Shown here: positions 3,977-13,111 of the stretch, piece after piece
Position numbering within the stretch: position 1 is the stretch's first letter
Layout of the letters: each line of letters opens with the position of its first letter
NCBI RefSeq assembly: GCF_001553405.1
Contig: NZ_KQ960952.1
Location: 277,965 to 341,964 of the forward strand
DNA length: 64,000 bases
DNA from: Megasphaera hutchinsoni
Lineage (GTDB): Bacteria > Bacillota > Negativicutes > Veillonellales > Megasphaeraceae
Reading direction: 5' to 3'
The notes under the pieces: generated by a model
What the model was told of the DNA's origin: nothing
The model's input: the letters and a program-made list of their open reading frames with translations, nothing else
Databases searched by the model: none
Made by a program: the position numbers and the translations under genes

Positions 3977-5356
3977 CTATTCCGATGAAAAAGCAATTTG
4001 TACTGCTTCCTGAATTGTTTTTACTGTATGTATTTTGCAAGAGGAAACGCCTTGTTTCATTATGTCATCTCTATTGCCATATGGCAAAATATAAGTCGTA
4101 AATCCTAAGGTTATACCTTCTTGTATACGTCGTAATACATGTGGAATACGTCGAATATCTCCCGTTAACCCCACTTCTCCCATGACGACTGTATTTCTAT
4201 CTAAAGGAGTATCCCGTAAGGCTGAATAAATAGACATCAATGTTGCCAAATCGGCAGCTGTTTCCGATATTTTTAAACCACCTACCATATTAACATAAAC
4301 ATCATAAGAACCCAACCGTAAACCCAATTGTTTTTCTAATACCGCTAACAAAATAATCAACCGATTATAGTCCATGCCTGAAGCCGTTCGCCTCGGTACG
4401 GAAAAAATAGAGTGTGTCGTTAACGCCTGAATTTCACAAAGCAAAGGTCGCACACCATCCATTACAGCCGTAATGACTGCCCCTGGATACACTTGTGTCC
4501 GTTCTGCTAATAATAACTGCGAAGGATTACGCACTTCTTGTAACCCCTTTTCCGTCATCGTAAATAATCCTGATTCACTAGTAGAGCCAAACCTATTCTT
4601 AATTCCCCGTAAAACTCGAAATTGATAATTTTTTTCCCCCTCAAAATGTAATACCACATCCACCATATGTTCCATAACCCGTGGACCTGCAATCGTACCT
4701 TCTTTCGTCACATGACCAATAACCAATACCGAAATATTTTCCGTCTTGGCAAATCCCATTAACTTTACAGTGCACTCTCGAATTTGACTTAAACTTCCAG
4801 GTGCACCTTCACAATCTTCAGTATACATCGTTTGAATAGAATCTACAATAAGCAGAGCCGGTCGTAAACGTATCGCCATTTGTAAAATCATATCTAGCGA
4901 TATATCCGATTGTACCATAATCGCTGACGATGTTATACCTAAACGTTCTGCCCGCAATTTAATTTGCCCCGCTGATTCTTCTCCAGAACTGTACATTACC
5001 TTTCCTTTATTAGCCACAGATGCAGCCATTTGCAACACTAACGTTGACTTACCAATACCAGGATCACCGCTTAATAAAATTAATGATCCCGGGACAATAC
5101 CGCCGCCTAAAACACGATCTAATTCAGCAATACCTATTTCCATACGTATAAGTGAAGCCATTTCAATATCACTCAATGAACATAATTTAGCACTCGTACC
5201 ATGACGCGGCAATACCTGTCGCGAAGAAGTATTCCTAGAAGGCACAGGTGCTTCTTCTAAGGTATTCCAATTTCCGCACTGCGGACATTTACCAAACCAC
5301 CGACTACTAATACTACCGCATTCGGTACATACAAATTGTGTTTTTACTTTTCGCAT
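3977..5356 (-). CDS. radA: DNA repair protein RadA
   Basis: A 459-residue RecA-like ATPase (Sms/RadA) that drives branch migration in recombinational repair. Visible parts in order: an N-terminal four-cysteine zinc finger (CTECG and CPQCG), Walker A GDPGIGKST, the family-specific KNRFG motif (GIKNRFGST), and a C-terminal Lon-protease-like domain (VNMVGGLKI, GEVGLTGDIR) without evident protease function. Length is typical. It starts 10 nt below the mcsB stop and is probably co-transcribed. In Bacillus clpC normally lies between mcsB and radA; here nothing does. Confidence 0.97.
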   Translation of the reverse strand: MRKVKTQFVCTECGSISSRWFGKCPQCGNWNTLEEAPVPSRNTSSRQVLPRHGTSAKLCSLSDIEMASLIRMEIGIAELDRVLGGGIVPGSLILLSGDPGIGKSTLVLQMAASVANKGKVMYSSGEESAGQIKLRAERLGITSSAIMVQSDISLDMILQMAIRLRPALLIVDSIQTMYTEDCEGAPGSLSQIRECTVKLMGFAKTENISVLVIGHVTKEGTIAGPRVMEHMVDVVLHFEGEKNYQFRVLRGIKNRFGSTSESGLFTMTEKGLQEVRNPSQLLLAERTQVYPGAVITAVMDGVRPLLCEIQALTTHSIFSVPRRTASGMDYNRLIILLAVLEKQLGLRLGSYDVYVNMVGGLKISETAADLATLMSIYSALRDTPLDRNTVVMGEVGLTGDIRRIPHVLRRIQEGITLGFTTYILPYGNRDDIMKQGVSSCKIHTVKTIQEAVQIAFSSE

Positions 5357-5366
5357 AATTCTATCC

Positions 5367-6410
5367 CTATACCTTATATTTTTCTAATGCTTTTTGTACA
5401 AAAGCTGCCCTATTTATCTCGATAGAAGTGCACTTATTCTTCGTCATTACATCAGCGATATCTGCATCACGTGCGGCAAAAAACAATTGGTCACATGCAA
5501 TTAGCGGAAGGGCGATATACCGAGAGGCCACAGCCCATCGTAATTGGCTCCATAAACGCATACATTCTAACCGATTAAGCATATAAGCATACGAAAGAAT
5601 CGCATAAGCACGCTTCCCCATATCGATAAAAGCAGCTTGATTCTCTTCTATATATTGCAAACGGCATTGTCGTTCTTCATTTACAATACGTTGCACTACT
5701 TTGAATATTCGCTCCATTATATCCTGTTCTGTCACACCTAAAGTCACTTGATTTGTTAATTGAAAAATATGTGTTTCTGGTGTTACATCTCGTTGTAGCA
5801 AAAATCCTTCATTGGTAATAAAAGGGATAAGATAACGTAACCGCTGTTGTTGTACTATACCAGGTAAATGTAACAAGATATTAATTTTTAAGCCCGTTCC
5901 CAACAGTGCGGGCGAAGCCGTTATATATCCCAATTTACGATGAAAAGCAACTGGTAACACCGCTTCTAAGGCATCATCACAAGCATTAGCCCGTTGCCAA
6001 AGTGGCTTAAGGGAAAACCCTGTACAAGCTGTATTAATCTGTATATGATCGGTTCCATTAAGTTGCAATTGTAATGCCCCATCAGCAGAAATTGCGAGTC
6101 CCGTATACTTTCTATTGGTCATTTCAGCCGTTATCCAATGCCAAGAAACAAACCATTCTTTTTCTTTTGCCGTAAGCGAATCAATATCAATCCATTGTAA
6201 ACAATAAAATTCCGTTTCACGTGCAAGATATAGAGCTTGCTTAATATCTTGATAAACCTTCGATAAGACCTCTGCCGTTGCAACTAAGGGAAACGCATAC
6301 GAACGTATATTTCGATGAATATGAACTCTGCTTTCAAGCACGACATCATACGCCGCTTGAGCATGTTCTTGCCATGACGCAAACATATCCTGAAATCGTT
6401 GGTTTCCCAT
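5367..6410 (-). CDS. mcsB: McsB-like protein arginine kinase homolog, probably catalytically impaired
   Basis: Collinear with McsB of the phosphagen kinase fold, 347 residues. In Bacillus and Geobacillus McsB phosphorylates arginines to mark proteins for ClpCP. Several hallmark residues differ here. The NEEDH catalytic-Glu motif reads NGTDH (residues 118-122). The CPTNVGTGLR motif reads SPALLGTGLK (166-175), so the position of the Bacillus Cys167 is Ser. SSRIRLAR reads ESRVHIHR (26-33). The C-terminal RD phospho-arginine pocket (RDIRRAA) reads IEINRAA. The FQLTNQVTLG strand and overall fold motifs remain. It begins 2 nt after mcsA. I infer a pseudokinase or strongly altered enzyme; residue numbering of the reference is from memory. 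Confidence 0.85.
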   Translation of the reverse strand: MGNQRFQDMFASWQEHAQAAYDVVLESRVHIHRNIRSYAFPLVATAEVLSKVYQDIKQALYLARETEFYCLQWIDIDSLTAKEKEWFVSWHWITAEMTNRKYTGLAISADGALQLQLNGTDHIQINTACTGFSLKPLWQRANACDDALEAVLPVAFHRKLGYITASPALLGTGLKINILLHLPGIVQQQRLRYLIPFITNEGFLLQRDVTPETHIFQLTNQVTLGVTEQDIMERIFKVVQRIVNEERQCRLQYIEENQAAFIDMGKRAYAILSYAYMLNRLECMRLWSQLRWAVASRYIALPLIACDQLFFAARDADIADVMTKNKCTSIEINRAAFVQKALEKYKV

Positions 6411-6412
6411 TT

Positions 6413-6862
6413 CTATTTCCCAATCCCTTCGTCTAAACTATCAATGAGTTGCCGAAGATGTGCTTCTTCTTTTTGGTTATGATTTACTACCGCTTGGGCT
6501 AAATGTTGCTGTAATTGTCGTACTTTTTGTGCAGTAGAAAAAACGCCATGTCCTCGATTAGGTACTTTTCCCATATGTCTTTCTCCTTCTTGTATGCGTC
6601 GTACTAGTGCTGCAATGTGTGAAGAAAACGTTTCATAGCATACAGCACAACCAAACATTCCCTTTTTTTGAAACGACTCAAAGGTAGTGCCACAAAAAGG
6701 ACAAGCTATATGCTCCTCTCTATTATCGACTTGTTCCATATCTTCACTAGAATCATCGTTCCATGACAATAAAGAGATTTCTTGTGTGCTTTCTTTTACC
6801 GCTTTCTTGTCTCCTTTTAAAAGTGTCAGTGCTGGAAGTATTTTATAACTATCATCTTTCAT
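6413..6862 (-). CDS. mcsA: McsA-like protein with a single zinc finger
   Basis: McsA is the zinc-binding activator and adaptor of McsB. This 149-residue protein has only one CxxC pair set (C54/C57 and C72/C75; CPFC and CAVC), followed by the conserved HMGKVPNRG segment and a C-terminal UVR-like helix. Bacillus McsA is about 180 residues with two such fingers; here the first ~50 residues are Cys-free and acidic. GAGGAAATGAT precedes the ATG. It lies between ctsR and mcsB with 2-14 nt gaps, clearly one operon. Confidence 0.88.
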   Translation of the reverse strand: MKDDSYKILPALTLLKGDKKAVKESTQEISLLSWNDDSSEDMEQVDNREEHIACPFCGTTFESFQKKGMFGCAVCYETFSSHIAALVRRIQEGERHMGKVPNRGHGVFSTAQKVRQLQQHLAQAVVNHNQKEEAHLRQLIDSLDEGIGK

Positions 6863-6876
6863 ATCATTTCCTCGGT

Positions 6877-7323
6877 TTATATATGTTCTAAAATACGACT
6901 AACAACCGCTAATCGCTGTTGTTCATCATCGACCTCCGCAAATAAGGCCGTAAAGGTATGATGCAATAATACGGCGTCACGGTTGGTAATGCGTTTTTGT
7001 TTTAATAGACGAAACAATACTCGATCTAGATCTTGCAACCGAATTGAAATAACGGGCATTTGTTCTGATACAACAACAGGAGAGTGCTCCGTTTTTTTAT
7101 TTCTCATCTTCGCAATACGTACAAAACCTCCCGATCCTCGTCTTGATTCCACGTGATACCCTTTCGCATTAGAAAAACGAGTGCTTAAAACATAACTAAT
7201 TTGAGAAGGTGCACATTGTAATTCATCTGCTAATTCATTTCGTTTTAAAATAACATTTTCTTTTTCTTCTTTTAATAATTTATGCAAAATTAATTTCTCT
7301 ATTTCGTCTGCTAATACACTCAT
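6877..7323 (-). CDS. ctsR: Heat-shock repressor CtsR
   Basis: About 148 residues. The N-terminal winged-helix DNA-binding domain has the characteristic glycine-rich wing (ESRRGSGGFVRI; usually RGGGG), and the C-terminal dimerisation domain is present. CtsR represses clp and other protein-quality genes in Firmicutes. I chose ATG 7323 because AGGTGAT, a strong match to the anti-Shine-Dalgarno sequence, lies four bases before it; a GTG at 7332 overlaps that site. It is the first gene of the block ending at gltX and is preceded by a sigma-A promoter whose spacer contains a heptad repeat resembling a CtsR box. Confidence 0.93.
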   Translation of the reverse strand: MSVLADEIEKLILHKLLKEEKENVILKRNELADELQCAPSQISYVLSTRFSNAKGYHVESRRGSGGFVRIAKMRNKKTEHSPVVVSEQMPVISIRLQDLDRVLFRLLKQKRITNRDAVLLHHTFTALFAEVDDEQQRLAVVSRILEHI

Positions 7324-7370
7324 GTCTATCACCTACATTCTGCATATTGAAATGGTTATTCTCACGTCTT

Positions 7371-7399
7371 ATTATATTAGACTTTTTGACTTTTTGCAA
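7371..7399 (-). promoter_or_regulatory. ctsR operon promoter with CtsR-like heptads
   Basis: On the minus strand TTGCAA, a 17-nt spacer and TATAAT form a good sigma-A promoter. The spacer and -10 region hold AGTCAAA-A-AGTCTAA, two heptads resembling the CtsR half-site RGTCAAA but with a 1-nt rather than the usual 3-nt gap. Autoregulation is inferred. Confidence 0.7.
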
Positions 7400-12208: not shown

Positions 12209-13063
12209 TTATCCATGCAATTTTCGATCAAGTTCCTGTAGTTTGGCAATACGCTTTTCCGTAGATGGATGTGTGCTAAATAAATTTAACATGCCATCGC
12301 GAATCCCCGCTAGTGGATTAATAATACATAAATGAGCCGTTGCCTTTGTTGCTCCCGGCATAACTCTATGATGGGCATAATTATCTATTTTAGCTAATGC
12401 ACGTGCCAAAGAAATTGGATCATCGCATAATTTTCCACCCTCTTCATCCGCCATATATTCTCTTGTTCGAGAAATAGCAAACTGTATCAACGCAGCAGCA
12501 ATAGGTGCAATCACAATGGTAACCAACAAAGCAACAGGATTATTTCCATCATCATCATCGCCACCGCGACCAAATATAGCTACCCATTGAGCTACATTGG
12601 CTAACATCGTAATCACACTAGCAAAACAAGCGACCATCGTACTAATCAAAATATCCCTATGCAATACATGTGACATTTCATGAGCCAAGACGCCACGCAT
12701 TTCATCTTTATCTAATAATGTTAAAATTCCTTCCGTTGCAGCAACAGCGGCGTGCGAAGGATTTCGCCCAGTTGCAAAAGCATTGGGCACATCTGTCGGG
12801 ATAATATATACACGCGGCATCGGTAATTCTGCTTTTTTCGCTAATTCAGCAACAATTTGATACAAAACATGATGTTCATCTACTTCTCTTGCCCGATACA
12901 TACGTAATACCATCGAATCGCTAAACCAGTATGAAAAAAAATTCATGCCAATCGCAATAATAAACATGATGTATAATCCCGAACGACCACCAAAAATCCC
13001 ACCTATCGCCATCATAATACAGGCTAATAACGTCATTAAAAACGCTGTTTTTACACTGTTCAT
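12209..13063 (-). CDS. htpX: HtpX membrane metalloprotease
   Basis: A 284-residue M48 integral-membrane zinc protease for quality control of membrane proteins. Two N-terminal membrane segments precede the catalytic HEMSH motif, and two further hydrophobic segments follow (about residues 145-170 and 175-195). The third-ligand region is around SRTREYMADEEGG. Length is typical. GAGGG precedes the ATG. It stands alone between terminators with a perfect consensus promoter upstream. A sequence near its transcription start closely resembles the repeat in the ctsR promoter, so CtsR control is possible. Confidence 0.95.
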   Translation of the reverse strand: MNSVKTAFLMTLLACIMMAIGGIFGGRSGLYIMFIIAIGMNFFSYWFSDSMVLRMYRAREVDEHHVLYQIVAELAKKAELPMPRVYIIPTDVPNAFATGRNPSHAAVAATEGILTLLDKDEMRGVLAHEMSHVLHRDILISTMVACFASVITMLANVAQWVAIFGRGGDDDDGNNPVALLVTIVIAPIAAALIQFAISRTREYMADEEGGKLCDDPISLARALAKIDNYAHHRVMPGATKATAHLCIINPLAGIRDGMLNLFSTHPSTEKRIAKLQELDRKLHG

Positions 13064-13082: not shown

Positions 13083-13098
13083 AAAGGTCAAAAAGTTT
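13083..13098 (+). promoter_or_regulatory. CtsR-like heptad repeat near the htpX start of transcription
   Basis: The plus strand reads GGTCAAA-A-AGTTTAA, matching the AGTCAAA-A-AGTCTAA at the ctsR promoter in 13 of 15 positions. It lies between the htpX -10 box and the ATG, a usual place for an operator. The factor is inferred only from similarity to the known RGTCAAA half-site. Confidence 0.4.
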
Positions 13099-13111
13099 AA
13101 TTTATATTTTT

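Follow-up and report, generated by a model that had tools for sequence, protein, structure and literature searches.

McsB is the protein-arginine kinase of Bacillus, Geobacillus and Staphylococcus, with structures such as 6TV6, 6FH1-3 and 8GQD; in the stress response, it marks damaged proteins by phosphorylation of their arginine residues. In arginine kinase, Glu225, Glu314 and Cys271 hold the guanidinium group, and Arg126, Arg229 and Arg309, among others, hold the phosphates (PMC11075012 and PMC12467219). PMC12467219 also describes that, in 8GQD, a loop of McsB contacts the zinc finger of McsA. An activity of McsB that is independent of phosphorylation is described for thiol stress in B. subtilis, where McsA holds McsB until oxidation; oxidized McsA frees McsB, which removes CtsR from DNA independently of its kinase activity (review PMC5506225). 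According to the same review, the ClpCP-adaptor function of McsB requires its kinase activity, and the shared dependence on this activity makes it difficult to separate the kinase role from the adaptor role. CtsR also works without arginine phosphorylation in the circuits of lactic acid bacteria (ClpE, ClpL), in which mcsA and mcsB are absent (PMC6305308).

Here we describe an McsB homolog encoded in a stretch of 64,000 nucleotides from Megasphaera hutchinsoni, referred to as the window. It shares with the canonical kinases the fold, the domain order, the ctsR-mcsA-mcsB operon and the McsA-facing loop. However, the catalytic Glu, Cys and Asn and four phosphate-binding Arg residues are lost, as is the RD pair, the lid is shortened, and the genome has neither clpC nor a YwlE motif. 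A search of the openly licensed literature, with subscription papers mostly outside its scope, found no publication on a kinase-dead McsB.

RESULTS

The mcsB gene and its predicted fold

The mcsB frame is unbroken and codes for 347 amino acids. Composition-matched shuffles of the gene (2000) had a mean of 23.8 in-frame stops and a minimum of 11, which rules out that the frame is open by chance, and the gene shows coding-type GC by codon position. The product matched PF00217 with 116.8 bits and five NCBIfam arginine-kinase models, all of them below their equivalog cut-offs (the best with 223 bits versus a cut-off of 385, another with 187 versus 500), and phmmer aligned it with the solved McsBs 8wtb, 6tv6, 8gqd and 6fh1. 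Solved McsBs were also the best Foldseek matches of the predicted structure (pLDDT 87.7, pTM 0.86), with a TM score of 0.89 to 6tv6; VIA-align placed 344 residues on 6tv6_C with a Z score of 40.0 and an rmsd of 2.6 A. Both the guanidino-kinase catalytic domain and the C-terminal dimerisation domain of McsB were found, as judged from PF00217 and the alignment with 6tv6_C. The McsB of M. massiliensis is likewise predicted to fold (pLDDT 91.1).

Residues of the active site

Residues are numbered as in Geobacillus McsB and were read from an alignment to solved McsBs. The earlier note had listed NGTDH in place of NEEDH, a Ser for the Cys of CPTN, an Arg lost from SSRIRLAR and GTGLK in place of GTGLR; the alignment bears out all four (E120G and E121T, C167S, R30H and R176K), the full motifs being changed from SSRIRLAR to ESRVHIHR, from NEEDHIR to NGTDHIQ and from CPTNVGTGLR to SPALLGTGLK. 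Its observation of many changes within an intact frame also holds, and the losses are more numerous than it claimed: R125Q, N170L and R207Q come in addition, and the lid loop, which reads LQ....RDVTPET instead of VRGTYGEGSEALG, is about 4 residues shorter. Furthermore, T169 is changed to Ala and E212 is absent, whereas R28, R33, D122 and H123 are retained. The catalytic set E121, R125, C167, N170, R176 and R207 is, hence, T, Q, S, L, K and Q in the window protein, and the sequence alignments revealed no alternative Glu or Arg at the site, the finding that the earlier note had named as a refutation of its claim. From the motifs, we take the altered residues to be the counterparts of the Glu, Cys and Arg residues of arginine kinase.

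Apart from the RD pair, the altered columns are invariant across 30 McsBs of two other families of the order (f3 and f4, see below). Only 4 of the 17 active-site columns that are near-invariant in 87 canonical McsBs are retained in the window protein. Outside the active site, it keeps just 34 of 56 near-invariant columns, which counts against the explanation that we prefer below, compared to a mean of 46.3 in its family relatives; by these alignments, it is the most decayed McsB of its family.

The RD pair of the phospho-arginine receptor (R337/D338) was located with the help of primers printed in PMC8370763. It is lost, as the earlier note had claimed, but the reading "IE" given there is obtained only without a gap, and the gapped alignment gives "IN". 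The pair is also absent from all 9 McsB rows of family f2, one of which is cut by a contig end. Its use as an activity marker was dropped since canonical McsBs outside the order often lack RD, which was present in only 22 of 57.

Taken together, the fold is retained and the chemistry very probably lost, as far as alignments and the structural model can tell. The missing residues, the confident model, its match to 6tv6_C and the missing YwlE motif lend good support to the claim of the earlier note that arginine phosphorylation was lost and the fold retained.

Operon structure and loss of clpC

The genome of the window (G000) is a draft of 1.57 Mb in 32 contigs with a completeness of 99.3%. The order ctsR-mcsA-mcsB is present with tight spacing (Table 1). 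In all 53 other readable loci of the order, clpC follows directly on mcsB, but in the window radA does. A genome-wide search with PF10431 returned two proteins only, ClpB, which passes its cut-off (1317.7 versus 1232.1 bits), and ClpX, encoded next to clpP; neither clpC nor an HslU-type match was found in the whole genome, and in the latter respect it differs from most relatives. It is the only one of the order's 55 genomes with mcsB in which clpC was found missing. The earlier note had overlooked this loss, which makes the classical role of McsB as ClpC adaptor unavailable here. McsA is altered as well: it has two CxxC pairs, and none of the 54 other McsAs has fewer than four. Compared with 8GQD, the McsA-contacting loop of McsB and the second zinc finger of McsA are kept.

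Table 1. Positions of the features of the mcsB locus and of putative CtsR sites in the window
Feature	Position	Strand	Basis or remark
radA; after clpC in relatives, directly after mcsB here	3977..5356	-	TIGR00416, 569 bits
mcsB-radA junction, 10 bp; clpC (~2.4 kb) here in relatives	5357..5366	-	gene order
mcsB, pseudokinase-like McsB homolog, 347 aa	5367..6410	-	ORF, profile matches, residue table and model
mcsA, 149 aa; lacks the N-terminal zinc finger, retains the second (CPFC...CAVC)	6413..6862	-	NF053706, 86 bits, below cut-off; CxxC count
ctsR repressor (listed ORF; probable start ATG at 7323)	6877..7332	-	PF05848, 101.7 bits
ctsR promoter, TTGCAA-N17-TATAAT; spacer is operator-like AAAGTCAAAAAGTCTAA (7393-7377)	7371..7399	-	shared with relatives
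HtpX-like M48 peptidase gene	12209-13063	-	beside operator-like site
CtsR-operator-like site, 2 mismatches, ~20 bp upstream of HtpX-like M48 peptidase gene	13084..13100	+	motif scan

Elsewhere in the order, G020 and G021 (both f2) have a ClpC-length match and no mcsB. As a further test we considered the phospho-arginine pocket of ClpC, presumably formed by E32/E106; it was uninformative because the GTEH segments stay in nearly all ClpCs of f1 and most of f2.

Spread of the losses among relatives

Our sample comprised 61 genomes of the order, 55 of them with mcsB, including 17 genomes of the window's own family (f1: Megasphaera, Anaeroglobus and Colibacter), 16 with mcsB. All 55 McsBs of the order were read, one of them (L075) cut by a contig end: the window protein and 15 f1 relatives, 9 of f2, 4 of f3 and 26 of f4. 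R125, C167, N170, R176 and R207 are missing from all 15 f1 relatives; R30 is kept in 15 and E120 in 14 of these. In f2, E120, E121 and C167 are missing from 9/9 proteins and the remaining positions are mixed. The McsBs of f3 and f4 are intact at every tabulated position. M. massiliensis, M. cerevisiae, M. paucivorans, Anaeroglobus geminatus and Colibacter massiliensis exemplify the state of f1: like the window, they have lost the five residues and the RD pair, and the YwlE motif is absent, but they differ from it in that R30 is kept, E120 mostly so, the lid has its full length, McsA has four CxxC pairs and clpC adjoins mcsB.

These counts rule out a single aberrant gene. The overall interpretation of the earlier note stands in its part on loss of phosphorylation with a kept fold; its picture of one aberrant gene was not borne out, the losses being family-wide in f1 and extending to core residues in all nine f2 proteins. 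They also bear on an error of assembly or annotation, which the draft state of the genome would allow for. Window and G000 sequences agree, however, and the 15 relatives, which come from separate assemblies and include several named isolates, show the same class of losses, so we reject an artefact as exceedingly improbable.

Another idea is that the pocket was remodelled to bind another nucleotide or ligand, as a sensor, or to transfer phosphate by other residues. The four residues kept in the window, together with R30 and E120 in the f1 relatives, indicate that the pocket was altered rather than erased. Contrary to this idea, the phosphate-holding Arg cluster, Glu121, Cys167 and part of the lid are all gone, and the replacements vary by species, unlike those of a conserved new site (R125 is replaced by Cys in 10, Val in 4 and Ile in 1 of the f1 relatives). 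A changed enzyme or sensor is, in our view, improbable.

In a phylogeny built from five genes of the neighbourhood (34 rows), f1 and the window group with f4 (support 99/99), and a single clade that unites f2 with f1 and the window is rejected (AU p=0.0106, with long branches flagged); on this tree, there were at least two independent losses. According to these sequences, the kinase-dead state is shared by the whole family f1 and has at least two origins within the order. The chemistry of arginine phosphorylation appears to have been lost across a group of gut and oral bacteria with the gene kept.

Stages of decay were also seen in other families of the class. In L147-L151, C167 is replaced by Tyr, Gln or Val and R207 by His or Gln with R176 kept, and L152 and L154 are far more eroded. 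In L155 (genome G321), a broken mcsB frame lies beside reading frames for ctsR and mcsA; mcsB seems to be dying at present in this lineage, to judge from the frame.

Loss of McsB residues and of the phosphatase YwlE

The presence of YwlE, the cognate arginine phosphatase, was judged from a degenerate DNA pattern that encodes CTGNTCR, which we regard as its active site, with Thr presumably as the specificity residue. The pattern was found in 0/17 genomes of f1, 0/12 of f2, 4/4 of f3 and 27/28 of f4, and it marks low-molecular-weight (LMW) phosphatases with CTGNTCRS in L256, L261 and L267. PF01451 matched in 23 of 29 genomes searched, and the LMW phosphatases of f1 and f2 were, where readable, of the CHGNICRS or C(V/I)xNSCRS type (3 of 30 listed loci had no clear motif). 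The whole window genome has neither the CTGNTCR motif nor a PF01451 match. G053 of f4 has the motif and no mcsB.

Across the 380 genomes of the class, PF00217 was found in 217 and the motif in 90. By subtraction of lists, 57 McsB carriers outside the order are motif positive and 105 motif negative; we read all 57 of the former and 33 of the latter, covering many genera and weighted to low scorers. With E/D121, R125, C167, R176 and R207 as core residues, core loss was seen in 0 of 87 motif-positive McsBs (57 outside and 30 inside the order) and in 37 of 58 motif-negative ones (window 1/1, f1 15/15, f2 9/9, others 12/33), counts that are not phylogenetically independent. Among the McsBs read, core loss was, hence, confined to genomes without the motif. 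As a strict marker of a dead McsB, the loss of YwlE nevertheless fails, because all core residues are intact in 21 of the 33 McsBs read from motif-negative genomes outside the order.

Selection and evolutionary rates

The kinase-dead McsBs of close f1 relatives are under purifying selection. Their dN/dS values (0.050 for L022/L027, 0.070 for L020/L021 and 0.031 for L028/L030) are near those of the corresponding radA genes (0.029, 0.055 and 0.053, respectively) and that of a canonical f3 McsB pair (0.074), which shows that the dead McsBs are constrained; an f2 pair gave 0.095. The ratio of McsB to RadA protein distance is about 2.0 within f1, 1.8 in f4 and 1.1 in f3. No close relative of the window mcsB was found in the genome collections searched, and therefore, the selection figures come from f1 relatives and not from the window gene. 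Distances of the window proteins to their relatives, expressed relative to RadA, are 0.93 for CtsR, 2.89 for McsA and 2.91 for McsB; conservation of CtsR thus equals that of RadA.

For the window genome, the data on the family as a whole cannot discriminate retained function from decay, which is the main rival. After loss of clpC, mcsA and mcsB may have become unimportant and be decaying, with CtsR working alone as an intrinsic thermosensor; the mcsB frame would then still be open owing to a recent onset of decay or to the position of the gene between ctsR and radA. Consistent with such a relic, McsA lacks its first zinc finger, McsA and McsB but not CtsR diverge at 2.9 times the rate of RadA, clpC and HslU-type matches are gone from a genome of small size, and G321 shows that an mcsB frame can break in this class. 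On the other hand, the frame is open with coding-type composition, the fold is confidently modelled, the operon spacing is still tight and purifying selection acts on the dead McsBs of relatives; moreover, G053 and G046 of f4, with neither a ClpC-length match nor mcsB, dropped the gene altogether. On balance, we regard a relic as unlikely, albeit a serious contender.

Putative CtsR operators

The element in the spacer of the ctsR promoter is also found between the -35 and -10 regions of ctsR in the relatives L029, L033 and L034, and a related AAAGTCAAAAAGAC lies at the ctsR promoter of several other f1 members. The Bacillus-type operator RGTCAAANNNRGTCAAA was not enriched in the window genome (32 matches versus 29 in the control) and was dropped as a regulon marker. 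A clade-type element, AAAGTCAAAAAGTC, which is a putative operator, is present in the promoters of both ctsR and clpB. Two tandem arrays of the AAAGTC type lie over the clpB promoter of the window genome (L036, G000:C28:90000-97500, at ~6916-6963), and the tandem form TTGACTTTTTGAC is found upstream of clpB in 13 of 16 f1 loci, the window genome counted; the remaining 3 had longer called frames, so that the scanned stretch may miss the promoter. From these motifs, ClpB looks like a main target of CtsR in f1.

DISCUSSION

We consider it moderately likely, from the sequences and the structural model, that the window McsB is a pseudokinase retained to modulate CtsR without kinase activity, in a ClpC-free module that controls the CtsR operon and ClpB. 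A scaffold or CtsR-binding function, as the earlier note had suggested, may be assigned to it. In our model, the protein, which retains the guanidino-kinase fold and the dimerisation domain, would not phosphorylate arginine, given its residues. The Megasphaera family would have given up arginine phosphorylation together with YwlE, and purifying selection would have preserved McsB for a non-catalytic role within the CtsR circuit, most likely that of a stoichiometric anti-repressor, gated by McsA, which counteracts CtsR directly at the operators. ClpC would then have been lost in the window genome, leaving CtsR, McsA and McsB as a module that would regulate the CtsR operon and the disaggregase ClpB, whose promoter carries the arrays described above.

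The removal of CtsR under thiol stress in B. subtilis resembles this model in that McsB has a job that needs no phosphoryl transfer; in B. subtilis (PMC5506225), McsB does this alongside its work as a functional kinase, whereas in the window it would be the sole activity left. The requirement of kinase activity for adaptor function, described in the same review, counts against our model. The circuits of lactic acid bacteria (PMC6305308) are similar in that CtsR works without arginine phosphorylation, but in the window mcsA and mcsB are both kept, although altered.

It is also imaginable that arginine phosphorylation was abandoned repeatedly in the class, only where the phosphatase is missing, that McsB became a selected pseudokinase each time, and that the window holds a ClpC-free switch controlling ClpB; to this wider scenario we attach tentative belief, well short of even.

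The annotation "protein arginine kinase" is probably wrong in Megasphaera-type bacteria, in which McsB would not be a valid drug target. The kept gene makes it possible to ask about a non-enzymatic role of McsB. Naturally occurring McsBs that lack catalytic residues, of which most coexist with ClpC and one does not, are ready-made separation-of-function variants, with which those parts of the McsB-CtsR-ClpC network that are independent of phospho-arginine can be tested.
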